The notes beneath the pieces were generated by a model. That model did not search any database. It was not told the origin of the DNA and was given only the letters and a program-made list of their open reading frames with translations. DNA of 64,000 nucleotides. Origin: an uncultured bacterium (GTDB lineage Bacteria; Spirochaetota; UBA4802; UB4802). The position numbers and the translations under genes are program-made. Shown piece after piece: positions 16,941 through 62,289 of this stretch (its first letter is position 1; each line of letters starts with the position of its first letter). The stretch covers positions 1 through 64,000 of the forward strand of contig CALEUQ010000022.1 of the NCBI GenBank assembly GCA_937920495.1, given 5' to 3'.

Positions 16941-17162
16941 ATGAAAAAGAATGTTGGTCCAGCTGACAGGTATATCAGAACTTTAGTTGGGGTTTCCTTT
17001 TTATTACAGATCTTTGTTGTAAAACCGGGCGCAATAGGTGCGATAATATTTTTGGCATTGGGACTGTCATTGTTGTATTCAGCATATACCGGCTACTGCT
17101 GGATATATGAGCTTTTAAAGTTGAGCACCTGCAAAGAATCATGCGCAGCTGAAGTTGAATAA
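16941..17162 (+). CDS. Small inner-membrane protein, DUF2892/YgaP-like
   Basis: A 73-residue protein with the DUF2892 signature (NVGPADRYIRTLVG near the start) and two membrane helices at about 18-32 and 35-55. In other genomes this domain is often fused to or next to rhodanese proteins, as in YgaP. Here it stands alone. GAGGTG precedes the ATG and a terminator follows directly. Confidence 0.85.
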   Translation: MKKNVGPADRYIRTLVGVSFLLQIFVVKPGAIGAIIFLALGLSLLYSAYTGYCWIYELLKLSTCKESCAAEVE

Positions 17163-17596: not shown

Positions 17597-18854
17597 ATGA
17601 AAAACAAATATATATTGATACTAACTATGATTGCATTAATTTTTTTAACACACTGTGGTGATGCTGGTTCAGATTCTGATTCAAGTACAACCACTAAGTA
17701 TTGGCAACAGATTAATTGGGAAACTGCTGATAATGGTGCGTATGCCAATTTCACGTATGAAAATCTTACTCCATCCTGTTCAAATCACCCATCAGCCGCA
17801 AATTCAAAGTTTACCTTTTTTGTGCGTTATGGTACTGTTAATAAGCTTGTTATCTATTTTCAGGGTGGAGGCGCCTGCTGGCATTACAATAATTGTATTG
17901 AAAAGACTACCTATTCTGAAGAACTAATGTACTATGACAATGATGATATACTCAATTTGATCAGTAATGGACAGGCAAAATCTATGGGTTACAGCGGCAT
18001 ATTTTATTTTTACAAATCCTGAAAATCCCTTCAAAGACTGGAATTTTGTATATATACCTTACTGTACAGGTGATCTGCATTGGGGGAAAAAGGATAATAT
18101 CTATACTAAAGATAATTCAAGTGCTACCATACGTCACCGTGGGCATGTTAATTTCCAGCTTGTTTTAGAATGGTTGCGTCATCATTTTAAGAACCCTGAT
18201 CCAGATATTATATTTGTAACAGGTATAAGTGCTGGTTCATATGGTGCTATATTTAATTTTCCTTATATTGCAGAAGAATTTACTCACTCACAACTGCATC
18301 TATTGGGTGATGCAGGTAACGGCGTTATTACAGTTGCATTCAAGCAAAGTATCGATGACCTATGGGGATCCTCATTACCAGATGCTGGAAACTTTCACCA
18401 GTTTAGTTCATATAATATAGATGATTTAACAATGGCAGATTTATATTCCACAATAGCCAATTTTTACAGTAACTATCGCTTTGCACAATATACAGCTGCA
18501 TGGGATGAAAACCAGGTTTTCTTTTATAATGTGATGGTTAATATAGAAAATCCAGGGGTGGATTACATTAACTGGTATAATCCCGATGACAGCATATGGT
18601 GTTATTGGCATACTACAATGCTAAATACATTAGAAACAACAATTACAGATATAACTAACGATCCAAAAAACTACGCATATTTTATTGCACCTGGGGAAGT
18701 CCATACTATACTCATGAACAATGAAGTCTATACATTAACTGTTGAAGGTGTACGGTTTGTTGACTGGCTACGCAGTATTGTTGAAGGTGGTACTACATTT
18801 AGTAATGTTGAATGTACAGACTGTCATCAACCTGAATTTGTAAGCTGTCAATAA
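17597..18854 (+). pseudogene. Pectinacetylesterase-like lipoprotein gene with a frameshift
   Basis: Two overlapping reading frames (17597-18022 and 17967-18854) form one protein of about 418 residues. It has a signal peptide with lipobox (FLTHC), then the family block YFQGGGACW near residue 95. The second frame continues with TNPENPFKDW, YIPYCTGD and the nucleophile motif GISAGSYG, and ends with a possible catalytic His in PGEVHTIL. The frames join at the T-runs at 18002-18011. Removing one T restores continuity (GIF..FTNPENPF). The break may be a real mutation, phase variation, programmed slippage or an assembly error. The family removes O-acetyl groups from pectin in plants, but bacterial homologues have unproven substrates. 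Confidence 0.8.
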
Positions 18855-18875: not shown

Positions 18876-18993
18876 CAGGATTTATTCCTTAAATAAAATT
18901 TGTAAACCTAATAAACATATTGTACACATCCGCCGCATTCGGCGGCTGAGGTATACATTTTATTATCAAAATATTTTTAAGGAATTATTAGTG
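18876..18993 (+). mobile_element. 120-bp hairpin element, copy B
   Basis: The element has end sequences CAGGATTTATTCCTTAAA and TTTAAGGAATTATTAGTG, and a core hairpin CCGCCG/CGGCGG. The flanking 9-mers ctatccaaa and ttatctcaa match at 6 of 9 positions, consistent with an old target duplication. It lies 21 bases after the stop of the pectinacetylesterase-like gene. Confidence 0.75.
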
Positions 18994-19010
18994 TTATCTC
19001 AACGTAAGCT

Positions 19011-19312: not shown

Positions 19313-19431
19313 CACGATTTATTCTTTAAATAAAATTTGTGAACATGATAAATACATTGTACACCCCGCAATCTTCGGCGGCGGGGTGTACTCCTTTTGA
19401 TTAACAAAATATTTTTAAGGAATTATTAGTG
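19313..19431 (+). mobile_element. 120-bp hairpin element, copy C
   Basis: The ends are CACGATTTATTCTTTAAA and TTTAAGGAATTATTAGTG. The core hairpin is TACACCCCGC/GCGGGGTGTA. The flanking 9-mers aaaattttt and ataattttt match at 8 of 9 positions, although both are low-complexity. It is upstream of the dsrE-like gene and in direct orientation relative to copy B. Confidence 0.8.
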
Positions 19432-19544
19432 ATAATTTTTATAAAAAATTTTTTTATTTACAAAAATGTAGTATAGTTTAATTAGTATTAAAGAGTATTA
19501 TAAAATATTAAATTATCTAAAAACTATAATATTGGGGGGTATCT

Positions 19545-20084
19545 ATGGATGTTAATAAAACTTTAGCAGACATCCAGAATCAGATTAAAGAGATTCAGGA
19601 TGGTCGAAAAGACAAACTTTCAATGGTTGTTTTCAGTGGCGATCTGGATAAGCTACTGGCAGCTTTTATTATTGGTACTGGTGCTGTTGCCATGGGCATG
19701 GAAACCGTTATGTTTTTCACCTTCTGGGCAACACCTGCATTGCGTGATAAGAAGAAAAAAGGAAAAGGCAAAAACCTTTTTGGGAAAATGTTCAGTTTCA
19801 TGCTTCCAAAAGGGGCTTCAAAGGTTAAGCTTTCAAAGATGAATATGGGTGGCATGGGAACCGGAATGATGAAATATCTTATGAAGAAGAAAAACATGCA
19901 GGATCTTGATGGCATGATAGCACTGGCTGCTGAACTTGGTGTCAAAATTTACGTATGTGAAATGTCAATGGATTTAATGGGCTTTAAAATGGATGAGATG
20001 ATCGATTATCCTGATATGAAATCTGTTGGTGTTGCCACTTTCTTACAGGAAGCATCTGATAGCAAGATTCAGTTATTTATATAA
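19545..20084 (+). CDS. DsrE/DsrF-like family protein (DsrE2 type)
   Basis: A 179-residue protein of the DsrE2/peroxiredoxin-like branch of sulfur-relay proteins. The conserved Cys138 lies in KIYVCEMSMDLMG, the expected persulfide-carrying position. A hydrophobic helix (about 37-62) and a basic, glycine- and methionine-rich insert (about 68-115) are typical of the DsrE2 group. GGGGGG precedes the ATG. It is followed by tusA and the DsrM/DsrK-like genes. This suggests persulfide delivery to or from a membrane Fe-S electron-transfer complex. Confidence 0.82.
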   Translation: MDVNKTLADIQNQIKEIQDGRKDKLSMVVFSGDLDKLLAAFIIGTGAVAMGMETVMFFTFWATPALRDKKKKGKGKNLFGKMFSFMLPKGASKVKLSKMNMGGMGTGMMKYLMKKKNMQDLDGMIALAAELGVKIYVCEMSMDLMGFKMDEMIDYPDMKSVGVATFLQEASDSKIQLFI

Positions 20085-20199
20085 TTTTTTTTACAATTTC
20101 TTCTTGTATTATGTATGTTGTGAGTATATAATTCAAACGTTAAGTTGAACTATAACATTCGTATAAAAATTTAATTTTTGAAAATTAAGAGGTGTAACT

Positions 20200-20439
20200 A
20201 TGAGTGACATTAAAGCTGATGTAACAATGGACTTAAAGGGATTGGCTTGCCCGCTTCCTGTGGTTAAGGTTTCACAGCAGATCAAAAAAATGCAGGTTGG
20301 GCAGATTCTTATGGCTGAAACCACTGACCCTGGTGCTCTGGCAGATTTTCCTGCATGGGCAAAAACAAGTGGTAATGAAATCATTGATACAGTGAAAGAT
20401 GGAAATGTAACAAAGTTTTTTATTAAAAAGCTTAAATAG
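20200..20439 (+). CDS. tusA: TusA-family sulfur carrier
   Basis: A small sulfurtransferase (79 residues) with the signature LACPLPVVKV carrying the persulfide Cys17. It passes sulfane sulfur between donors and acceptors in the cytoplasm. AAGAGGTG precedes the ATG. It sits between a DsrE-like and a DsrM-like gene rather than beside thiouridine synthesis genes. A role in dissimilatory sulfur trafficking is therefore more likely than tRNA thiolation. Confidence 0.92.
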   Translation: MSDIKADVTMDLKGLACPLPVVKVSQQIKKMQVGQILMAETTDPGALADFPAWAKTSGNEIIDTVKDGNVTKFFIKKLK

Positions 20440-20456
20440 CTAATCTTGCGAGGTGA

Positions 20457-21182
20457 ATGATGCTGGGCTATATATCATATTTTATTCTTGTTCCAATGGT
20501 ATATATTGCCTTTGCAACCTTAATTTTAGGGCTTATCTACAAATTTTATGTTATCTTTAGAGCTCCTGTCCCTGCCGGTACAGGAGCTATTTTCCCTAAA
20601 CAAGGTTCAAAGGTTTTGGGGCTTATTTATGACGCCATGGTAGTCCCCAATGTCTATAACAAGCAAAAATTCTTCTGGTTTATTATCATGATATTTCACA
20701 TTGCGTTCTTCTTCCTTTTCTTAGGTCACCTTGAACTTGTTGATGAGTTTTCTTTTATTCAGATAATTCCGCATAAGGTATTTCTTGGTGGTGGTGTTGT
20801 AGGTATGGTTCTCATCATTACAACACTGTATTTTTTATTCAGGCGTTTTGGATCACCATACCGCGAAATATCAATTCCAGAAGATTTTATGATATTGCTG
20901 GTACTCTTTTTCTGTATATTATTTGGTTCAATTCTTCATTTAGCTGAACGGTATAGCGACTGGGGTGCAGTGCTCAGGGTGGATGTAAATGATTACCGGC
21001 AATGGCTACAAAGCATGATAGTGCTTAAACCGGAGCTATCGTACAAAATAACTGAACTGTCGCATTATACTATCCTGGTTCTTCATGTGCTTTTTGCAAA
21101 TATTTTCCTCATGATGTTTCCATTCAGCAAGATGGTACACTCTGTTTTTACTTTTTTAGCACATTATCGTAAAAGGAAATAG
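20457..21182 (+). CDS. DsrM/NarI-like membrane cytochrome b subunit
   Basis: A 241-residue integral membrane protein with about five helices. His81 and His91 (IFHIAFFFLFLGHLEL) lie in the second helix. Further His occur in ILHLAER and in SHYTILVLHVLFAN near the C-terminus. This is the haem b ligand pattern of the NarI/DsrM/HdrE/TmcC group, which exchanges electrons with quinone. GAGGTG precedes the start. Two bases separate it from the next gene, the Fe-S partner. Confidence 0.83.
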   Translation: MMLGYISYFILVPMVYIAFATLILGLIYKFYVIFRAPVPAGTGAIFPKQGSKVLGLIYDAMVVPNVYNKQKFFWFIIMIFHIAFFFLFLGHLELVDEFSFIQIIPHKVFLGGGVVGMVLIITTLYFLFRRFGSPYREISIPEDFMILLVLFFCILFGSILHLAERYSDWGAVLRVDVNDYRQWLQSMIVLKPELSYKITELSHYTILVLHVLFANIFLMMFPFSKMVHSVFTFLAHYRKRK

Positions 21183-21184
21183 CC

Positions 21185-22432
21185 ATGGATAAGGAAAAAG
21201 TTTTGGAATTAGAACAGGTTATCGAAAAGAAATTGAACAGGCCCATGCTATACTATCTGGACCTTTGCACACGTTGCGGTCTGTGTTATGATACATGCCA
21301 TGCATATCAGGGAATTCCCAAAAAGGAATATTCACCAGTTGGAAGAGCTGAAGTTGTCCGCAAGGTATTCAGAAAATATTTCAGACCAACAGGCAAATTT
21401 TTCCCATGGTGGGGCGATGCCCGGGAGTTTGACGAAAACCTTATGGAAGAACTACGGGAAGCTGCTTTCTCATGTACAGGTTGCAGGCGCTGTACTATGT
21501 TCTGCCCCTTTGGCATAGATATGCCGTACATATTGGGAATTGCTAAAGAATTGTTAATAGCATATGGGAATGCACCTGAAGAGCTGGTAATGCTTGCCGA
21601 TGGTGCTGTTGAAAAAGGCAAAAGCGTTGAAATGTTCAAAGAAGGTTACCAAGGCGTTATCAAGGATCTTGAAAAAGAAGTTCAGAAGCTAATCAAAGCC
21701 CCCACCAGCGAAGGGCTCATCCCTATGGAAAAGAAAGGCGCCAATATACTGTTTGTTGGACTTTCAGGCGCTCACTCGATTATATATCCTGCTGCAATTT
21801 TTAATGCAGCAAAAGAAGACTGGACTCTTAGCTATTTTGAAGCTGTTAACTTTGGTTTCTTTGCAGGCGATAGTGAAAAGGCAAATTTTATTGCCAACAG
21901 GGTTATTAATGAAGCAAAGGAATTAGGAGTTAAGGAGATAGTTATTGTTGAGTGTGGCACCGCATATAGAATACCTAAATTCTTAATGGGGCCCCTGCCC
22001 TTTAAAGTATCAAGCATTGTAGAAGTTATTCACCGCTACATCAAAGAAGGCAGAATTAAGATTAAAGAAGGTGTCATTACTGATCCAATTACCTGGCATG
22101 ATCCATGCCAGCTTGGCAGAAATGGTGGTGTGTATGACCAGCCGCGTGAAGTATTGAAGATGCTTGCCAAAGATTATCGCGAAATGAATCCAACTCGTGA
22201 ATATAACTGGTGCTGTGGCGGAGGTGGTGGACTTGTTGCTCTGGATAATGAAGAATTCAGAATTAAAACAGGTAAACCAAAAAAAGAACAGATTGAAAAA
22301 AGCGGTGCTAAAATGGTTGTTACCGCATGTGAAAACTGCCACCTGCAGCTATCAACAATAAATGCAGGATATGGAATGGGTGTCACCATAGAATCTTTTA
22401 CAAAATTGGTTGGTGAAAATTTAATTGTGTAA
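21185..22432 (+). CDS. DsrK/HdrD-like Fe-S protein
   Basis: A cytoplasmic electron-transfer or thiol-reducing subunit. Two [4Fe-4S] ferredoxin motifs are seen: Cys28, 31, 34, 38 and Cys97, 100, 103, 107. One complete CCG cysteine-rich domain follows (HDPCQLGR, then NWCCGGGGG, then CENC near 384), which in heterodisulfide reductase binds the catalytic noncubane cluster. At 415 residues it is close to TmcB/HdrD-type proteins and shorter than many DsrK. It is paired with the cytochrome b gene and with sulfur carriers, so a persulfide or disulfide substrate is plausible but unproven. Confidence 0.85.
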   Translation: MDKEKVLELEQVIEKKLNRPMLYYLDLCTRCGLCYDTCHAYQGIPKKEYSPVGRAEVVRKVFRKYFRPTGKFFPWWGDAREFDENLMEELREAAFSCTGCRRCTMFCPFGIDMPYILGIAKELLIAYGNAPEELVMLADGAVEKGKSVEMFKEGYQGVIKDLEKEVQKLIKAPTSEGLIPMEKKGANILFVGLSGAHSIIYPAAIFNAAKEDWTLSYFEAVNFGFFAGDSEKANFIANRVINEAKELGVKEIVIVECGTAYRIPKFLMGPLPFKVSSIVEVIHRYIKEGRIKIKEGVITDPITWHDPCQLGRNGGVYDQPREVLKMLAKDYREMNPTREYNWCCGGGGGLVALDNEEFRIKTGKPKKEQIEKSGAKMVVTACENCHLQLSTINAGYGMGVTIESFTKLVGENLIV

Positions 22433-22469: not shown

Positions 22470-24992
22470 TCACACCTGCTTTTTAATTATTTCCACAAAT
22501 TCATTACTTTTTTTATACGGCTGCATCATTGACAAATCTGCAAACGTATCCAGTGCTGTCTGATAATCCTTCAAAGCAAAACATATCTGTCCAAAAAGGT
22601 AGTTAAATTCTTTATGATCAGGTTTTTCTTTAAGCGCCAGTAGTATTGCCTTTTTAGCTTCTTCATACTGTTTGTTCTTCATCAGTAATTTGGCCTTAAG
22701 ATAATTATACGATGCAGCAAGAGGAACTGTTGATATGGAATTTAAGATTGACAGGGCTTCATTGTAGTTTTTCTTTTTATACAGCGTCACTGCTTTTTTA
22801 AGATAATTGTCTAAAGCTACCGGCTCACCTATCTCAATGACACAAAGGGTCACATCATCACGAATAGTACCGTCTTCAGATTGAATAAAATTTTCAAGAT
22901 CTTTAATGATTATATCTATCTGGTCCTGTGGGGCAAATTCCCTGGATGCAACAAGGATGTTAGTAAAACGTTCATTACCATATAAATGCCCGCTTTTTGC
23001 TCTTGCTTCAGTTATGCCATCAGAATATAAAATTATTCGATCTTTGGTATTTAGTTCAAAAAGGCATTCCGGATAACTAATGTGTTCATCGGCACCTATA
23101 AAAAGTGAATCAGTTGTTAATGGATACACCGTATCATTTACTGTAATAACATAAATATCAGTATGACCACAGTTAGTATACAATAATTCCATATTAACAA
23201 AATCAATAATACCTAAAAACAGAGTAAAATAAAATCCACTTTCCTGTAATATTGGTGTCAGCTTACTATTTAATTGGGTACAAATTGCTGATGTTGAGTT
23301 ATATAATCTGGATAGATTCTCAATCTCTGTTTTAATCATTGACGTAAGCAGCGCTGATGGAATCCCATGACCTGAAACATCAACAATACCAATCAGATAA
23401 TGTGTGTCATCAAGCTGCTCCATCAAAAAAAAGTCACCACTTACTTCCATGTACGGCCTGAAATATACTGCTGCATACAACTGGTTATTTGCAGGAAGAA
23501 TGGAAGGCAAAAGCGTTTTCTGAACTGTCTTTGCCAGCTTAAGCTCAAATTCCATCTGCTCATTTTTTTTCTGCAACTGCTCCGTTCGTTGCATTACAAG
23601 AGCTTCTAAATTATTCTTTAAATTGCTCAGTCTATGATACATAAGAGAGTTAGCAATTGCTATCGAAGAAGCAGATTTAATATTTTGCAGAAATTCAATC
23701 TCATCATTGGATAATGCTTTTAAATTTGCGCGTTCAGATAATACAATGACACCAATAAATTCATTATGTTCCAATGGTATAATATATTCTGCAGAGAATT
23801 TTTCAAACCATGGTAACAAAATATTTCTTATCTGTTCATATTGTGGCTTGTTTTCAATTATTTTTTTCTCAATTACACCAGGATTTTGTAACAAGTAGTC
23901 CCTTACCTGCACATCTAATATAATAGAATCGCCATTGAGATTATATAGTTCATTTTCTTTTTCTTCTGATTTTATATAAATTTCCACATTTTTAATTAAC
24001 AATGTACGCTTCAATATATACGATAGCTCATTTAAAAGGAGGTGCAAATCTTTTAACAATGCAATCTCGTTGATAAACTGCGATTCAACTTTTTTCAGAT
24101 TATATTTTCGCCTGTTAAAAACCTGGTCTATAAGTGGCTGAACTTTTATAAAATAGAGATAGTTAATTGCAAACCATATTGCTAATAAGAAAAACAATAA
24201 TGATTTATCAATAGATCTGAAAAAAGGGTACAGCAGATTAAAAATAATTATATTGGGCACAAGAATTACTGATGAAATACACAACCATATAAACGTGATA
24301 TGCAATACACTCTGAATATCCATTAAGCGGTAGCGCAGAATACCATACGCTAAAAATAAAAGTGGAATAAACATCAAGTTACTGAGTGGATAGAAATTAT
24401 ATCCAAGCATCGCAGGAACATTACACGCAGTAAAAATACCAATTAAATTCAATGCCAGTATGATATATTTTATTTTTAAACGGACTAACTCATTCTTTTC
24501 CTGTTGTAACTTCAAAATACTGATCACAATTCCATAACCAAGCACAGAAAATGCATATACACCAAATATTTGAAAAGCTACACCACCCCTGGCTATATGT
24601 CCCCATGGATATGTCAAAAGATCTGTTATATAGTATGGTGTATGTACTAAAAATGCAAAAACTGCACTTATCATAAAAGTTACAATTTCAAGATATGTTC
24701 TTTTTATATTTAACGCAGTGTGATAAAATAATACGCCAATGAAAGGTATAAAAACATAAAGAGAATGAATAGCTCTTTCCATTCTTAATATAGTATTGAC
24801 GTCTTTAATTATAAAATGCCCTAAAAAATTTGGGGTGAGCAGTGCATACCATAAGCAAAAGACAGCAAACAGTATATTTTCTTTTTTCAGTTTTCCCTTA
24901 AATATTGCAATTCCAGCAACTATTACACTTGTAATAAGAGTTATTAAGGGAGGCAGCATAAATATATTGAGTGAAGATATTATGTCATGCAT
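22470..24992 (-). CDS. Membrane-anchored SpoIIE/PP2C phosphatase with TPR tail
   Basis: An 840-residue signalling protein. Residues about 10-260 hold seven to nine membrane helices, like the N-terminal sensor regions of some histidine kinases. A GAF-like segment (about 310-450) and a short coiled coil (RTEQLQKKNEQMEFELKLA, near 470) follow. The RsbU/SpoIIE PP2C domain (about 500-705) contains EVSGDFF, GIVDVSGHGIPSA and IILYSDGITEA. TPR-like repeats close the protein (about 720-840). Such phosphatases usually dephosphorylate STAS anti-sigma-factor antagonists. A STAS protein is encoded at 47239, but a direct link is inference. Confidence 0.88.
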   Translation of the reverse strand: MHDIISSLNIFMLPPLITLITSVIVAGIAIFKGKLKKENILFAVFCLWYALLTPNFLGHFIIKDVNTILRMERAIHSLYVFIPFIGVLFYHTALNIKRTYLEIVTFMISAVFAFLVHTPYYITDLLTYPWGHIARGGVAFQIFGVYAFSVLGYGIVISILKLQQEKNELVRLKIKYIILALNLIGIFTACNVPAMLGYNFYPLSNLMFIPLLFLAYGILRYRLMDIQSVLHITFIWLCISSVILVPNIIIFNLLYPFFRSIDKSLLFFLLAIWFAINYLYFIKVQPLIDQVFNRRKYNLKKVESQFINEIALLKDLHLLLNELSYILKRTLLIKNVEIYIKSEEKENELYNLNGDSIILDVQVRDYLLQNPGVIEKKIIENKPQYEQIRNILLPWFEKFSAEYIIPLEHNEFIGVIVLSERANLKALSNDEIEFLQNIKSASSIAIANSLMYHRLSNLKNNLEALVMQRTEQLQKKNEQMEFELKLAKTVQKTLLPSILPANNQLYAAVYFRPYMEVSGDFFLMEQLDDTHYLIGIVDVSGHGIPSALLTSMIKTEIENLSRLYNSTSAICTQLNSKLTPILQESGFYFTLFLGIIDFVNMELLYTNCGHTDIYVITVNDTVYPLTTDSLFIGADEHISYPECLFELNTKDRIILYSDGITEARAKSGHLYGNERFTNILVASREFAPQDQIDIIIKDLENFIQSEDGTIRDDVTLCVIEIGEPVALDNYLKKAVTLYKKKNYNEALSILNSISTVPLAASYNYLKAKLLMKNKQYEEAKKAILLALKEKPDHKEFNYLFGQICFALKDYQTALDTFADLSMMQPYKKSNEFVEIIKKQV

Positions 24993-25893: not shown

Positions 25894-26014
25894 CACTAAT
25901 AATTCTTTACAAATATTTTGTAAATAAAAAGGTGTATACCCCGGCCGCCTAAGGCGGCATGGGTGTACACTATGTTTATCGTGTTCGCAAATTTTATTTA
26001 AGGAATTAATCGTG
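25894..26014 (-). mobile_element. 120-bp hairpin element, copy D (complete, type copy)
   Basis: The complete 121-base copy runs from CACTAATAATTC to GAATTAATCGTG. The terminal inverted repeat consensus is CAC(G/T)A(A/T)TAATTCCTTAAA. The central GC-rich hairpin GTGTATACCCCGGCCGCC/GGCGGC..GGGTGTACAC is flanked by asymmetric AT-rich arms. The 9-mers outside it, attttgcaa and cttgtgcaa, match at 7 of 9 positions. It contains no reading frame of note. It lies directly upstream of pyrD, and its terminal GTG starts a spurious N-terminal extension of that gene. Confidence 0.85.
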
Positions 26015-34110: not shown

Positions 34111-34215
34111 AATAAAATTTGTGAACATAATAAACATAGTGGACACCCCCGCCGTCAAAGTCAGCGGGGGTGTCCACCTTTTTATTAACAAATGATTTTT
34201 AAGGAATTATTAGTG
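34111..34215 (+). mobile_element. 120-bp hairpin element, copy E (left end missing)
   Basis: The copy starts at AATAAAATTTGTGAACATAA, lacks the outer ~17 bases, and ends at the intact terminus AAGGAATTATTAGTG. Its core stem GTGGACACCCCCGC/GCGGGGGTGTCCAC carries paired changes relative to the GTGTAC/GTACAC of other copies. It lies next to the family-2 remnant at 34067-34108. Confidence 0.8.
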
Positions 34216-35229: not shown

Positions 35230-37668
35230 ATGATGAAAGGACGGTGCAAAGCAGTGAATCTGAGAGAGCGATTATTAAAGCCCTACCCGCTTGTCATGGA
35301 TGGTGCAATGGGCACCATGATTTTTAATGCATTACCTGATTATAAGGGGAATCTGGAACTGCTTAACATAGAACGACCAGATGTGATAGCATCAATACAT
35401 ACTCGCTACATTGAATCCGGTGCTGATATTATTGAAACCAATACCTTTGGAGGCAATGCGTTAAAACTTCATGAAGCAGGCCTTGATGAGCGTTGTGAAG
35501 AAATAAATAAAGCTGCAGCAAAGGTAGCAAAAGATGTTGCTAAGGGCAAAGCCTTTGTAGCCGGTTCGGTAGGCCCCACCGGAACATTAGTAGAACCTAT
35601 GGGCATGACGCCAGTCCACACTGTATACAATGCATTCAAGCGGCAGATTGCAGGTTTGGTGGCCGGTGGTGTTGACTGCATTGCCATTGAAACAATGACT
35701 GATCTACAGGAAGCACGGCTTGCTCTTCTTGCAGCAAAGGAGGTAACCAATATCCCTGTCATCTGCAGCATGACATTTGAATCAAATGGGAAAACTGTTA
35801 CCGGCACTGATATTGTCACCGCACTGGCAACTCTGTCGCAGATGGGTGCAGATGTTGTGGGAGCAAATTGCAGCATGGGCCCTGATGGCCTGGTTGAGCT
35901 TTTCAAAGGTACTATCGCCCCACTTAATGAATTAGGTGTACCGCTTTCTGTGTGGGCCAATGCAGGTATGCCTGAGCTTGTTGACGGCAAAGCGGTGTAC
36001 AACCTTTTGCCTAAGCGTTTTGCACAGCTTTCAGTTGAATTTGCCAGGATGGGTTTTTCCATCATTGGCGGTTGCTGTGGTACCACGCCTGAACACATTA
36101 CGATGTTAGCATCTGCTGTAAAGAATATCCTTATAAATACAAAAAAAACAAAGACCTATACCTATATCACAAGCAGGTATACTAGCATAAATGTACACAC
36201 TCATAAAGGTTTGCTCATCATTGGCGAACGGTTAAATCCTACTGCGCGCAAACAATTTGCAGCGGAGCTCAAAGAAAATACTTTTACCTTTTTGCGGAAT
36301 GAATCAAAAAAACAGCAGGAAGAGGGCGCTCACTGCCTGGATATTAATGTTGGCGTTCCCGGCATTGATGAAGTAGCTATGATGAAAAAAGCAGTGAATG
36401 TGTTAACTAACAGCGTAACCATTCCACTCATGATAGATTCAGACAATCCCCTTGTAACTGAAGCTGCATTATGGCAATATCCGGGAATACCAATTATCAA
36501 CTCCATCAGCGCAAAGAAGCAAAGCATTGACACTATGCTTCCGCTACTCAAAAAATTTGGCGGCTTTGTGATAGCCATGTGCCTGGATGAAACAGGAATA
36601 CATAAAGATGCATCAAAACGAATAGCAATTGGCCAAAAACTTATAGATTTGCTGCAACATCATGGCATAACACAATCACGCATTTTCATTGATCCGCTCA
36701 TTTTAGCAGAAAGTGCAGAAAGCGGTGCAGCACAGGAAACACTTAAAGTAATTGAGTACTTTGCCGCAAAAGGTATCAAGACAAGCATTGGCTTGAGTAA
36801 TATTTCGTTTGGATTGCCACAGCGTAAATTTATCAATAATGTATTTTTGAAACTTGCTCTTCAAAAAGGACTTTATGCTGCTATAGTAAATCCGCACGCT
36901 ATCGACACTGATATTACAAAACCGTTTACCACTGAAGAACTGCTTGCACTGGATTTTCTTGAAGGAAGAGATAAAAACGCCACACACTATATTGCTCATT
37001 TTGGCCAAGCTCAACTGCAAACTCAAAAACAAACTAAAGCTGTGAATATACTACAAAAGATTTTTGCCCTTGTGGTTGAAGGAAATGTGGATGATATAGA
37101 AGCAGCAGTAAAAGAAGCACTACACCAGTTTAGCCCTGAAACAATTATGAATGATGCACTGATAGCTGCATTAGAAAAGGTAGGCGATCTATACAGCAAA
37201 GGAGAATACTTCTTGCCACAGATGATTGCGTCTGCTGATACCATGAAAAAAGGATTTAATGTGTTAAAACCATTGATGGTGCAAAAGAAGGAATCAGTGC
37301 TGGGCAAAGTAATTATCTGTACTGTGAAAGGTGACATACATGATATTGGCAAGAATATAGTTGCCATGATGCTTGAAAACCATGGCTTTGAAGTGATTGA
37401 CCTTGGTAAAGATGTCCCTAATGAAACAGTAATTGAAAAAATACGTGAATATAAACCCCATATTGTATGTTTAAGTTCACTTTTAACAACCACCATGCCC
37501 AATATGGGACTAATTGCTAAAGAGCTTAAAACACAACAGCTGTCATGCACACTGATGGTGGGTGGTGCAGTGGTAACAAAAGAATATGCTGACAGCATTG
37601 GTGCATTATATGGCAAAGATGCTGTGGAAGCGGTGGCTGTTGCAAAAAATATTGTAAAAAAACCATAA
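35230..37668 (+). CDS. metH: Cobalamin-dependent methionine synthase, short form
   Basis: Methylates homocysteine using methyl-tetrahydrofolate through cobalamin. Domains in order are a homocysteine-binding barrel (about 10-290; zinc Cys in GANCSMG and GGCCGTTPEH), a pterin-binding barrel (about 325-590; GERLNPTARK, DINVGVPG) and a B12-binding Rossmann domain (about 600-812; GDIHDIGKNIV with the axial His). The C-terminal AdoMet reactivation domain is absent, as in MetH of several anaerobes. The GTG at 35254 has AAGGACGG upstream and may be the true start, since no ribosome binding site precedes 35230. No B12 or SAM riboswitch fits in the short leader. Confidence 0.92.
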   Translation: MMKGRCKAVNLRERLLKPYPLVMDGAMGTMIFNALPDYKGNLELLNIERPDVIASIHTRYIESGADIIETNTFGGNALKLHEAGLDERCEEINKAAAKVAKDVAKGKAFVAGSVGPTGTLVEPMGMTPVHTVYNAFKRQIAGLVAGGVDCIAIETMTDLQEARLALLAAKEVTNIPVICSMTFESNGKTVTGTDIVTALATLSQMGADVVGANCSMGPDGLVELFKGTIAPLNELGVPLSVWANAGMPELVDGKAVYNLLPKRFAQLSVEFARMGFSIIGGCCGTTPEHITMLASAVKNILINTKKTKTYTYITSRYTSINVHTHKGLLIIGERLNPTARKQFAAELKENTFTFLRNESKKQQEEGAHCLDINVGVPGIDEVAMMKKAVNVLTNSVTIPLMIDSDNPLVTEAALWQYPGIPIINSISAKKQSIDTMLPLLKKFGGFVIAMCLDETGIHKDASKRIAIGQKLIDLLQHHGITQSRIFIDPLILAESAESGAAQETLKVIEYFAAKGIKTSIGLSNISFGLPQRKFINNVFLKLALQKGLYAAIVNPHAIDTDITKPFTTEELLALDFLEGRDKNATHYIAHFGQAQLQTQKQTKAVNILQKIFALVVEGNVDDIEAAVKEALHQFSPETIMNDALIAALEKVGDLYSKGEYFLPQMIASADTMKKGFNVLKPLMVQKKESVLGKVIICTVKGDIHDIGKNIVAMMLENHGFEVIDLGKDVPNETVIEKIREYKPHIVCLSSLLTTTMPNMGLIAKELKTQQLSCTLMVGGAVVTKEYADSIGALYGKDAVEAVAVAKNIVKKP

Positions 37669-37813: not shown

Positions 37814-38332
37814 GTGAAAGGGACACGTTCTTTTCTACTCTTTTTCTTACCATTTGTTATATTTGCATACATCTCGTTTATCGTATTTCAGCAGGCCTGT
37901 GATTATGCCATGAATGTGCAGGCAAAAAAGCTGCTTCCATTCAATCATCGGACACATACTACTAAATATGGTGCATCAGACTGTGAAATATGTCACAGTT
38001 ATGACAGTAATGGAAGATTCAACGGTATCCCTACTGTAGCAGTATGTAAGCAGTGTCATGATCCAAATAAAGCAAGCACTCAGGTGTTTTTTGCTGGTTT
38101 TGGTGATAATGACAAGCCATGGGAATCATTTGCCCAGCAGCCTGACCTGGTATATTTCAGCCACATAGCTGTGATGAAAAACGAAAAGAAAGCACAATGT
38201 ATTTCATGCCATGGTGACAAGGGCAATTCCACTACAACTGCTAAAATTAAGGGTAAGATGGCCATGGGTACATGCATGGACTGCCACACAGCTTTAAAAA
38301 TCAGCAATGCGTGTACAGTATGTCATGATTAA
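37814..38332 (+). CDS. qrcA: QrcA-like membrane-anchored multihaem cytochrome c
   Basis: A 172-residue protein with one N-terminal membrane helix (about 5-25) and five CXXCH haem c motifs: CEICH, CKQCH, CISCH, CMDCH and CTVCH. It faces the periplasm. It starts at GTG with AAGGAG seven bases upstream. With the next three genes it makes a Qrc-type complex that passes electrons between menaquinone and soluble cytochrome c. Desulfovibrio QrcA has six haems, whereas this one and ActA of alternative complex III have five. The separate B and C subunits favour Qrc over alternative complex III. Confidence 0.82.
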   Translation: MKGTRSFLLFFLPFVIFAYISFIVFQQACDYAMNVQAKKLLPFNHRTHTTKYGASDCEICHSYDSNGRFNGIPTVAVCKQCHDPNKASTQVFFAGFGDNDKPWESFAQQPDLVYFSHIAVMKNEKKAQCISCHGDKGNSTTTAKIKGKMAMGTCMDCHTALKISNACTVCHD

Positions 38333-38379
38333 TCATTCTTATTTCTGAATCGAAATTCAAGTAAGGAGTTATTACATCC

Positions 38380-40347
38380 ATGAAACTCGAACGAAAAGAT
38401 TTCTTAACGATGATAGGTGGAGCGGTAGTTGGTACCGGTGTTGGCACCCTAATTTCACCCGGACCATGGATGGGTCTACAATGGCTGGTTGAATGGACCC
38501 AGGATCAGTATCGCCCCCCAAAAGGTGAAGAAAAATATTTAGCAAGTATTTGCGACCAATGCCCCAACAAATGTACAGTACAGGTCAGAATGATTGGGGA
38601 TAGAGCCGTTAAGATTGAAACATCCAATCAGGGTTGTGCTGCAGGGCAACTCCTTTTACAGGTCCTCTACCACCCTGAACGTGTAAAGACCCCATTAAAA
38701 CGAACCGGCAAAAAAGGAAAAATTGATTTTGAACCGGTTTCATGGGAAAGTGCAATAGCAGATATCTCTAAGAAATTAAATGATGCCATAAACAACAAAA
38801 AACAGGATCAGATTGTAGCAATAAATCCTGCTTTCCCCGATGCAACAGCAATGTTGAATGAACGTATAGCGCTCTTTGCAGGAAGCCCACATGTATATCA
38901 GGAATCCGGGTACTGGGCTTTAAGCAATGCCTGTTCAGTTGCAACCCAGAAAACTGAAGGAGCTATCGACTATGATTTTGAAAATGCTGATTGCGTTGTA
39001 AGCTTTGGTGCTCGCCTTTTTGAAGGATGGGGAAATCCTGGAAGGATGCATAAGGTATTGAACATCTGGAAGCAAAAAGGGGTAAAATTTATACAGGTTG
39101 ATTCTATTGCAACACGTACTGCTTCATTGGCAGACCAGTGGGTTGCAATAAAACCGGGTAGCGAGCCAATTTTTGCTATGGGTGTTGCTCATTATCTTCT
39201 TAAATATGGCAGGCGCTCAGGTGCAGCCAATTTTGGCAGATTTACTGAACTTTTGATTAATAAGTTCACTCCGGAAAAGGTTTCTGAGCTGAGTGGTGCA
39301 TCACTTGAAACAATTGAATCAGTTGCCAAAGCATTACTTGCAGCACGAAGACCAGTAGCTGTGGCAGGCAAAGGAGGAAAGGTTGTGTCTTCCTCAGTTG
39401 CCGAGTTTGCAATAGTACAGACAATAAACAGCATGATCGGCAGTCTGGGTAACAGTGTTAAGGTTGTTACCTTTACAACACCTGCCAAACCTGCAATCGC
39501 AAAGAAAACCAAAGGGCTGGATGAATACATAGCCAGCGACATGACATGTGATATAGTCCTGATAAATAACGCCAATCCAGTATATTCAAGCGTGTATGGG
39601 CAGCGGCTTTCTGAAAAGTTGAAAAAAGCTTCAACAGTTGTGCTGTTTACTTCTTTACTTAACGACACTGCACAATATGCTGACTACATCTTTCCAACAC
39701 TCACTTCGCTTGAGCTTCCCTACACTGGCCAGGCTGTAACAGCAAGGTTTGAAGCTAAACATGCAGGCGACTCTTTGCTTGCAATCGCAAAAAACACTTC
39801 CAATATAGCTGCTCAATTCCCATGGAATAGCTATCTTGATGTAGTAAAAACTGTAAGTTTTCAGACTAAAAATGTAGCAAATCTGGATATTCCTATTGAT
39901 AACATAATTGCAAAACTTGAAGAATTAGAAAAATTGTTGCAGGCTTCAGGCTCATACTCCATCTCTATGGTACCTTTTGAAATACCCGTTGTTGGCGAGG
40001 GAAACGGCATTGCGCTACCCTATGTATTAAAAGCCCTCCCAAATACCATTTTAAAAGGCGATACAAGCTGGGTATGGATGAACCCTGTTACCGCATCAAA
40101 AGAAGGAATTTCCGAAGGCTCCAAAATCGATATTGAATCTTCTCGTGGTGAACTTGACACAGTGAGAGTACATTTGACCAAACGCGTTGCCTATGACACA
40201 GTTGCAATGCCTATCGGTTTTGGCCATGAGGAATTAACCGAATATGGCAGCGAAAAAGGTGTTAACCCAAAACCCATAATGTCAGATGCGTTAGACCCAT
40301 TAAGCGGTTATGCTGACTGGTGGTTAACACGAGTAAAATTGAGTTAA
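38380..40347 (+). CDS. qrcB: QrcB-like molybdopterin-oxidoreductase family subunit
   Basis: A 655-residue periplasmic subunit of the molybdopterin oxidoreductase fold. The N-terminal cluster motif has Cys58, Cys61, Cys65 and Cys86. The signal region reads LERKDFLTMIGG, so the usual twin-Arg pair of Tat signals is Arg-Lys. In the characterised Qrc complex this subunit binds no molybdenum cofactor and acts as a scaffold. The same is inferred here from synteny. GTAAGGAG precedes the ATG. It is followed at 13 bases by the four-cluster Fe-S subunit. Confidence 0.82.
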   Translation: MKLERKDFLTMIGGAVVGTGVGTLISPGPWMGLQWLVEWTQDQYRPPKGEEKYLASICDQCPNKCTVQVRMIGDRAVKIETSNQGCAAGQLLLQVLYHPERVKTPLKRTGKKGKIDFEPVSWESAIADISKKLNDAINNKKQDQIVAINPAFPDATAMLNERIALFAGSPHVYQESGYWALSNACSVATQKTEGAIDYDFENADCVVSFGARLFEGWGNPGRMHKVLNIWKQKGVKFIQVDSIATRTASLADQWVAIKPGSEPIFAMGVAHYLLKYGRRSGAANFGRFTELLINKFTPEKVSELSGASLETIESVAKALLAARRPVAVAGKGGKVVSSSVAEFAIVQTINSMIGSLGNSVKVVTFTTPAKPAIAKKTKGLDEYIASDMTCDIVLINNANPVYSSVYGQRLSEKLKKASTVVLFTSLLNDTAQYADYIFPTLTSLELPYTGQAVTARFEAKHAGDSLLAIAKNTSNIAAQFPWNSYLDVVKTVSFQTKNVANLDIPIDNIIAKLEELEKLLQASGSYSISMVPFEIPVVGEGNGIALPYVLKALPNTILKGDTSWVWMNPVTASKEGISEGSKIDIESSRGELDTVRVHLTKRVAYDTVAMPIGFGHEELTEYGSEKGVNPKPIMSDALDPLSGYADWWLTRVKLS

Positions 40348-40360
40348 GAGGTGAACAATT

Positions 40361-41191
40361 ATGGCCACAATGACAAGAAGATGGGGAATGGTTATAGATT
40401 TAGATAAATGTACCGGGTGCGGGGCATGTAATATTGCATGTGCACAGGAAAATAATCTTCCTATTTTTAAAGATGATTCTGATGTTCCCAAAAGGGTCAC
40501 TTTCCTTGATCTTATTGAAGTAACCAATGATAAAGATCCTAAAGCACAGTACCCTGATGTTAAAGTTGCATATATACCCAAGATGTGCCAGCAGTGTTCA
40601 GGAAATGACCCAAATAATCCGCAACCACCATGCGTGTCAGTGTGCCCGGTTGTTGCAACCGATGTGGGTGACGATGGCGTTGTAAGCCAGATATGGTCAC
40701 GATGTATAGGTTGTAGATACTGCCAGGTAGCCTGCCCGTATGAGGCACGTGTATTTCACTGGTGGAAACCTCGCTATGAGGGTTCATTCAAGGAATCACT
40801 TAATCCTGACGTTTCCATTGCATCACGTGGTACCATGGTAAAATGTACATTCTGTTCACATATATGGAAACGTGAGCGCGATAAAGCCATAGCACAGGGT
40901 GTAACCGACATTAATGCCGTTATGTACACTCCCGCATGTGCAAACGCATGCCCAACAAATGCCATAATTTTTGGCGACCTTAATGATCCTTCTTCTCCAG
41001 TATATGAGCCAAAATTACAGAAGGATCCCAGAGCAGTACGACTGGTACATTCCATTGATGAATTGCGTACAAAAGATCCGTCTGAATATGAAAAGCGGAT
41101 TAAGATCAAAGAATATCCAAATCCAAAAGTATATTACTTAACCAGTCAGCAATGGCTGCGCGATAAAATATCTGGATTTAAAAACTCCTAA
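40361..41191 (+). CDS. qrcC: QrcC-like four-cluster ferredoxin subunit
   Basis: A 276-residue Fe-S protein of the DmsB/PsrB/NrfC type. Four cysteine groups are visible: CTGCGACNIAC, CQQC with CVSVC, CIGCRYCQVAC and CTFC with CANAC. They would wire electrons between the cytochrome, the QrcB-like subunit and the NrfD-like membrane subunit. No signal peptide is present, so export with the QrcB-like subunit is assumed. AGAGGTG precedes the ATG. Confidence 0.88.
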   Translation: MATMTRRWGMVIDLDKCTGCGACNIACAQENNLPIFKDDSDVPKRVTFLDLIEVTNDKDPKAQYPDVKVAYIPKMCQQCSGNDPNNPQPPCVSVCPVVATDVGDDGVVSQIWSRCIGCRYCQVACPYEARVFHWWKPRYEGSFKESLNPDVSIASRGTMVKCTFCSHIWKRERDKAIAQGVTDINAVMYTPACANACPTNAIIFGDLNDPSSPVYEPKLQKDPRAVRLVHSIDELRTKDPSEYEKRIKIKEYPNPKVYYLTSQQWLRDKISGFKNS

Positions 41192-41213
41192 AAAAGGATA
41201 AGGAGAGTATACC

Positions 41214-42446
41214 GTGAGCAAAGTAATAGATTTTATAAAAAATGAATGGAATAGCTACCCAAGGAATATACAGATTACTCTGTATGTGCTCTTTGGACTG
41301 GTAGCCCTTTTTACAATTTTTGCTATCCAGATCCTTTTCTGGGGCTTAGGTTACACCGATATGAATAACCGCTTTGCAATGGGGATATGGATTATCGGTG
41401 ATTTGGGTTTTGTTGCACTGGGCGGTGGTGCATTCTTTACCGGTTTTATGCTGTACATATTCAGGGTTGATAAGCTTCAGCCTTTAATAAATTCCACTGT
41501 CCTTATCGGTTTTATGTGCTACCTGTTTACTTTTATATTACTGGTATTTGATATTGGTCAGCCGCTGAGAGCCTGGTTTGGATATGCATACCCTAATTGG
41601 GGACCACATACCATGCCACAATCAATGCTTACAGAAGTAGTGTGGTGTTTAACATTTTATTTTCTTGTTCTTTGTGTTGAGTTATTCCCTATCATACTCA
41701 GCAATAAATATCTTGATAGGTATCCATTTTTACACTATTTAGCGCATTATTTACATAAGTTAATGTGGATATTTGCAGCTGTTGGAACATTCCTGTCATT
41801 CTTCCATCAGGGATCACTTGGTGGCGGAATGTGGGGTGTATTATACGCCAAACCATACTGGTTTAGACATCATTATTTTTATTTGGCGATAGTAGCTGCG
41901 ATAGCTGGTGGACCTTGCCTTATGATGCTGGCTCCAAAAATCGCAAGCTGGGTTGCTAAAAAAGAGCTTGTTCCCAAAGATGCATATATGACATTAGCAC
42001 AGATAGCAGGAATTACATTTATTGCCTACTTCCTCTTTAGAGTATATGATCTTTACACGCTGGCAAATCACTTTGCCCCATTATTTGACCGCAAACTTGT
42101 TGACATGATGGGTGGATATTATGGATGGTGGGTAGTTGGATTGGAATTACTTGCTTCGCTGGCTGCAATTGTTATTCTTAATGTTAAAAAACTCCGTGAA
42201 AATGAACAGTATTTTGTTGGCGGTTTGATTAGTGGCGTGCTTGCAATAGTAATGCTTAAAGTTGATGTGTTACTCCATGGATTCTCTATCCCCAATTTTC
42301 CATGGCAGGATTTCTTTGGATACAATCCAACTATTCAGGAATGGTTTATATTCTTAGGTTCAATTGCGTGTATGATACTTATCTATATGTGGTTTGTAAA
42401 ATATATCCCGCTGTTTCCTGAAAAACATACTGAAGAAGCACATTAA
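41214..42446 (+). CDS. qrcD: QrcD/NrfD-family quinone-interacting membrane subunit
   Basis: A 410-residue integral membrane protein with about ten helices, of the NrfD/PsrC/ActC family. It binds menaquinone and completes the four-subunit complex. A His-rich segment (HKLMWIFAAVG, then FFHQGSLGG) matches the conserved helix of ActC and QrcD. It starts at GTG with AAGGAG about eight bases upstream. A terminator follows within 20 bases, so qrcA to qrcD form one operon. Confidence 0.88.
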   Translation: MSKVIDFIKNEWNSYPRNIQITLYVLFGLVALFTIFAIQILFWGLGYTDMNNRFAMGIWIIGDLGFVALGGGAFFTGFMLYIFRVDKLQPLINSTVLIGFMCYLFTFILLVFDIGQPLRAWFGYAYPNWGPHTMPQSMLTEVVWCLTFYFLVLCVELFPIILSNKYLDRYPFLHYLAHYLHKLMWIFAAVGTFLSFFHQGSLGGGMWGVLYAKPYWFRHHYFYLAIVAAIAGGPCLMMLAPKIASWVAKKELVPKDAYMTLAQIAGITFIAYFLFRVYDLYTLANHFAPLFDRKLVDMMGGYYGWWVVGLELLASLAAIVILNVKKLRENEQYFVGGLISGVLAIVMLKVDVLLHGFSIPNFPWQDFFGYNPTIQEWFIFLGSIACMILIYMWFVKYIPLFPEKHTEEAH

Positions 42447-62168: not shown

Positions 62169-62289
62169 CACTAATAATTCCTTAAAAAATATTTTGTTAA
62201 TTAAAAGGTGTACACCCCCGCCACCAAAGACGGTGGGGGTGTACAATATTCTTTTATATTCACAAATTTCATTTAAGGAATAAATCGTG
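62169..62289 (-). mobile_element. 120-bp hairpin element, copy F (complete)
   Basis: A 121-base copy running from CACTAATAATTCC to GGAATAAATCGTG. Core stem GTGTACACCCCCGCC/GGTGGGGGTGTAC includes a G-T wobble. The flanking 9-mers ttcattttt and ttcattgta match at 7 of 9 positions. It is in the leader region upstream of glmS. Confidence 0.85.

Follow-up and report, generated by a model that had tools for sequence, protein, structure and literature searches.

DsrMK-type complexes are usually taken as markers of sulfite or sulfate metabolism. YTD clusters, and the sulfur carriers DsrE2 and TusA, are also already known. Standalone DsrMK has been described (PMC10504309), and in Metallosphaera cuprina dsrE3A-dsrE2B-tusA genes lie beside hdr-like genes (PMC4175335). 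CoADR-rhodanese proteins are known for the NADH-dependent reduction of persulfides and polysulfides (PMC7969121). The DNA analysed here, called the window below, is a stretch of 64,000 nucleotides from an uncultured member of the Spirochaetota (GTDB lineage UBA4802; UB4802). Syntrophic butyrate degradation was reported for Spirochaetota of class UBA4802 (PMC7382037), which may include the order of the window. It contains four genes in the order DsrE2, TusA, DsrM-like, DsrK-like, and both the open reading frames and the Pfam matches agree with the order given in the initial annotation (Table 1). The last three genes are closely packed, with 17 bases between TusA and the DsrM-like gene and 2 between the latter and the DsrK-like gene; the gap between DsrE2 and TusA is 115 bases. 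No description of this four-gene order was found in an open-access full-text search.

Table 1. Positions and family assignments of the operon genes and of a nearby PF11127 gene in the window
Feature	Position	Strand	Evidence
DsrE2-type sulfur carrier (PF13686)	19545-20084	+	Pfam E 8e-47; single Cys138 in YVCEMSMDLMG
TusA sulfur carrier (PF01206)	20200-20439	+	Pfam 6e-20; single Cys17 in CPLP
NarI/DsrM-type membrane subunit (Nitrate_red_gam, PF02665)	20457-21182	+	Pfam 3e-12
DsrK/HdrD-like Fe-S subunit	21185-22432	+	CCG/PF02754 + 2x 4Fe-4S motifs
YgaP-like two-helix membrane protein (PF11127), loose fifth member	16941-17162	+	

The two redox subunits carry complete sets of predicted cofactor ligands. 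In the DsrK-like protein, two ferredoxin motifs CxxCxxCxxxC (C28/31/34/38 and C97/100/103/107) precede one complete CCG domain, the noncubane motif being made of C308, C343, C344, C382 and C385. The 8 ferredoxin cysteines, the 5 CCG cysteines and an extra one, Cys257, were invariant across 20 genomes; the description as an HdrD/DsrK-like protein with a single CCG domain is thereby confirmed, and so are the noncubane cluster residues, whose conservation was to be checked. The haem b assignment of the membrane subunit is also supported: H81, H91, H210 and H228 are spaced by 10 and 18 residues, and they align on the NarI haem ligands, which we take to be residues 56, 66, 187 and 205. These histidines are conserved, H81 being absent from one row only, at an alignment gap.

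Family models place these proteins near known complexes, at low scores. The best NCBIfam matches were DsrK, TmcB and HmcF for the Fe-S subunit, DsrM, TmcC and NarI for the membrane subunit, and DsrE2 for the first carrier, all far below the equivalog cut-offs. The DsrK-like protein scored 260 bits against the DsrK equivalog model NF045796, whose cut-off is 400 bits, and the true DsrK of the relative G042 reached 725 bits with the DsrK model. The AlphaFold models reached a mean pLDDT of 67-68, a middling quality that suffices for fold matching only. With them the DsrK-like protein matched the folds of EtfD and HdrB, to which its CCG domain is also similar, and EtfD was its closest solved structure.

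Each carrier offers a single sulfur-binding site. The persulfide cysteines proposed by the initial annotation are both invariant in the alignments: Cys138 is the only cysteine of DsrE2 in 19 of 19 orthologues, as is Cys17 of TusA in 20 of 20 sequences. The TusA assignment rests on the CPxP motif together with the family match. The PF13686 match and the conserved active cysteine make the first protein DsrE2-type, and not an equivalog DsrE2 (62.5 bits, with a cut-off of 210 for NF047629); it also matched 3pnx, a Syntrophomonas wolfei protein described as a putative DsrE, by profile (1e-37) and by fold. Having one cysteine each, neither TusA nor DsrE2 can form the intramolecular two-cysteine di- or trisulfide of DsrC, and a DsrC-like mechanism on a single carrier is thus ruled out. 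This anatomy would allow a carrier persulfide, or a mixed TusA-DsrE2 di- or trisulfide.

We then asked whether the operon belongs to a Dsr pathway encoded elsewhere. The genome is 94% complete and was searched whole. No sulfite-reductase domain (PF01077), hence no DsrAB, and no DsrC were found in it. It encodes four CCG proteins, namely that of the operon, GlpC, an FAD-linked fusion of the glycolate-oxidase type and a fused HdrDE/EMO-type protein, none of which is sHdrB-like or HdrB-type. The absence of dsrAB and dsrC, previously asserted for the window, therefore extends to the whole genome, as does that of shdr judged from the CCG proteins, and the operon genes are not simple paralogues of a full Dsr pathway located elsewhere. 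Among the 46 genomes of the order, DsrC was present in 10 and paired DsrAB-like genes in 10. Of the 23 genomes with the operon, 7 are among the 10 that have DsrC and 16 lack DsrC; in 13 of these 16, PF01077 proteins are absent altogether. In a tree, the DsrK-like proteins of the operon formed a clade (support 100/100) apart from the true DsrK encoded beside DsrAB/DsrC, even within one genome. Since this clade is separate, and since seven genomes carry both the operon and a Dsr system, we conclude that the DsrK-like protein is neither a remnant of the Dsr pathway nor a simple paralogue. That DsrK is the best NCBIfam model for the Fe-S subunit would speak for such an origin, which we nevertheless regard as extremely improbable, given also that all ligands are intact and that the operon occurs with and without DsrAB/DsrC. 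In three loci (L079, L080 and L084), two or three distinct DsrK-like paralogues lie within ~12 kb of one contig.

The operon is conserved in a narrow group. Among 296 Spirochaetota genomes, full-length DsrK-like orthologues (63-96% identity) were confined to the order of the window, all other proteins being at ~30%. Within this order, which was surveyed family by family on limited stretches of each relative, they were present in 23 of 46 genomes, belonging to families f1, f2, f3 and f6. The survey suggested by the initial annotation gave a clear result for Spirochaetota: the order DsrE2-TusA-DsrM-DsrK was kept in all 20 loci uncut by contig ends, over the four families. DsrE2 genes track the operon, as they were found in 20 of 23 carriers versus 6 of 23 non-carriers, the 3 exceptions among carriers being due to contig ends. 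In G007 and G122 (loci L057 and L067), the DsrK-like frame is broken by a frameshift or a partial deletion, which may reflect assembly errors or decay. Beyond the phylum, a scan of genome contigs with a single-sequence query reached only two close relatives and weak archaeal homologues. Plasmid searches returned only DsrK-like proteins at ~30%, the best one in a hydrogenase operon.

Most other neighbours of the operon differ between genera and families. A PF11127 YgaP-like gene is a partial exception: 10 genomes of three families, about half of the genomes, have it no more than ~3 kb away from the operon (besides the window, in loci L038, L040, L041, L043, L044, L047, L048, L054 and L067), and only one to three copies exist per genome. 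A naive estimate, which ignores shared ancestry, indicates that this proximity is not due to chance, and the protein is a possible fifth member. Upstream, a pectinacetylesterase-like gene at 17597-18854 is split over two frames, where L038 has a single ORF of 418 aa. Downstream and convergent with the operon, positions 22470-24992 encode a protein of 840 aa, putatively a SpoIIE-type phosphatase by eye, whose family recurs beside the operon in f1 and f3 (L072). Two copies of a ~120-base repeat with inner inverted repeats, MITE- or REP-like, are located just upstream of the operon (18876-18996 and 19313-19434), with 3 more partial matches in the window (25894-25918, 34191-34215 and 62169-62193). 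An Rfam search gave no match near the operon.

Our main proposal, to which we give about an even chance (0.5), is that the four genes specify a menaquinol:protein-persulfide oxidoreductase bound to the membrane and acting mainly as a reductase. Sulfane sulfur would arrive on Cys17 of TusA and Cys138 of DsrE2. The DsrM-like dihaem b subunit would draw electrons from menaquinol and hand them to the DsrK-like subunit, whose two [4Fe-4S] clusters would relay them to its noncubane cluster. There, the carrier persulfide, or a mixed TusA-S-S(n)-DsrE2 di- or trisulfide, would be reduced to thiols and sulfide, a chemistry that may be likened to that of HdrDE with CoM-S-S-CoB and of DsrMK with the DsrC-trisulfide. 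Such a predicted complex might also couple the reaction to energy conservation. In line with the proposed donor, the genome has MqnA/MqnD-type menaquinone genes, and the window holds a Qrc-like menaquinone complex. Against the proposal, a match to the futalosine pathway, the only menaquinone pathway covered by this search, was lacking in 8 of the 23 genomes with the operon. Persulfide reduction with menaquinol as donor may also be thermodynamically marginal. No dedicated sulfur importer linked to the operon was found, and PF04143 (YeeE/YedE) is absent from the genome, which counts against it as well. Elsewhere in the window, a QrcABCD-like operon lies 15 kb downstream, at 37814-42446, in this genome devoid of DsrAB and DsrC: its four subunits (cytochrome c, molybdopterin-like, Fe-S and NrfD-type) all have Qrc as best match, below the cut-offs. 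Qrc connects periplasmic cytochrome c with menaquinone (PMC6303296). Next to it, positions 35230-37668 encode a corrinoid methionine synthase that resembles MetH but lacks the C-terminal activation domain.

The initial annotation had suggested a compact membrane complex coupling quinol to the reduction or oxidation of a protein-bound persulfide, with TusA possibly in the place of DsrC. The dihaem and noncubane ligands, the gene order and the independence from Dsr sustain the quinone-linked complex, but they do not set the direction of the reaction. As for TusA, it is indeed a conserved carrier in the operon, but its direct role as substrate does not follow, and it cannot copy the two-cysteine trisulfide; the substrate could equally well be DsrE2 or a TusA-DsrE2 heterodisulfide. 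A bolder and rather doubtful extension would be a quinone-linked sulfur respiration that does without DsrC. Its two single-cysteine carriers would together form a TusA-DsrE2 heterodi- or trisulfide, to be reduced by a pared-down DsrMK; this would be the protein counterpart of the CoM-S-S-CoB/HdrDE couple, and possibly older than, or parallel to, the DsrMK-DsrC step.

As to the direction of the reaction, DsrMK of known systems is thought to be bidirectional, which counts against a reductase only, and electron transfer from thiols to menaquinone is downhill. The same complex could work oxidatively, as was proposed for DsrMK in the reverse Dsr pathway: the DsrK-like subunit would oxidise carrier thiols or persulfides to a disulfide or trisulfide, and electrons would go to menaquinone. 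DsrC is supplied by TusA and DsrEFH in reverse Dsr systems, and its oxidation, with reduction of quinone, was proposed to be the task of DsrMK-type complexes (PMC13293266). We consider this reading rather unlikely, as the genome has neither DsrAB nor an sHdr-type CCG protein to process the oxidised sulfur onward. Moreover, four genomes of family f4 (L095 to L098, that is L095, L096, L097 and L098), where the operon is absent, encode CoADR-rhodanese-TusA-DsrE2 fusions of 812-818 aa with the domain make-up of the NADH persulfide reductase (PMC7969121). If the same carriers are fused to a reductase there, they may present sulfur to a reductase here too, menaquinol taking the place of NADH. This lead, from four genomes of one family, leans toward reduction.

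A different role for the reductase was also considered, in which the quinone pool keeps TusA and DsrE2 reduced for persulfide or thiol homeostasis, or for biosynthetic sulfur delivery, outside of respiration. The genome has no stand-alone TusA besides that of the operon, and related TusA-DsrE pairs adjoin cysteine desulfurase/NifU-like genes in G127 (L065, 1888-4503) and G071 (L066, 2613-4894), both as expected for such a function; however, the operon is missing from half of the order and is therefore not essential housekeeping, and we find this explanation unlikely. Still less convincing is a generic quinone-linked electron module (EMO-, Tmc- or Isp-like) served by another donor, with the sulfur carriers merely co-regulated. 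The EtfD structure and the related protein of the hydrogenase operon would fit with it, but a separate EMO-type protein is already encoded in the genome, the carriers adjoin in every testable locus, and no other neighbour gene is fixed.

A conserved DsrMK-type version that has its own carriers and is free of DsrC and DsrAB means that DsrMK as a marker can mislead, and it suggests that such complexes may accept other protein-bound sulfur. The four-protein system would permit a direct test of how a noncubane cluster of the DsrK type reacts with persulfide on a protein, and uncultured spirochaetes gain a candidate sulfur-based electron sink.

Several known systems share parts of this design. YTD clusters (YedE-TusA-DsrE) of sulfur disproportionators also have adjoining tusA and dsrE-family genes, but the operon lacks YedE and CHP genes and has quinone-linked redox subunits; a YTD disproportionation cluster is ruled out for this genome by the lack of a YedE-type transporter. 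sHdr sulfur-oxidation systems, with DsrE2/TusA carriers beside CCG-type redox proteins, rely on a soluble HdrABC that is missing here, where a membrane b-type subunit is found instead, and they are ruled out by the lack of HdrB-type proteins noted above. EMO/EtfD proteins are defined by the fusion of a NarI domain with a pair of CCG domains, whereas the operon has separate genes and one CCG domain; the two-CCG protein with a membrane portion is encoded at another site of the genome. The NADH persulfide reductase Npsr (CoADR-rhodanese, including the CoADR-Rhd-TusA-DsrE2 fusions) likewise ties TusA/DsrE2 to a predicted persulfide reductase, but Npsr is a soluble NADH flavoprotein and the operon a predicted membrane Fe-S/haem complex. 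HdrDE of methanogens also leads electrons from a quinone-like carrier through a noncubane cluster to thiol-disulfide chemistry; the operon is bacterial, has one complete CCG domain and not two, and uses protein carriers in place of CoM/CoB. There is a close likeness with the DsrMK core of DsrMKJOP, the DsrC-trisulfide:menaquinone oxidoreductase, which combines a NarI-type dihaem b subunit with an Fe-S subunit that carries a single CCG domain along with two ferredoxin clusters. Compared to it, the DsrM- and DsrK-like proteins stay below the equivalog cut-offs, the DsrK-like clade is separate, DsrJOP genes do not adjoin, and TusA and DsrE2 stand in the operon instead of DsrC/DsrAB. Judged from its genes, the operon is thus outside DsrMK by score, tree and partner, and is a variant of the DsrMK/HdrDE kind, with the same predicted electron path and other partner carriers.
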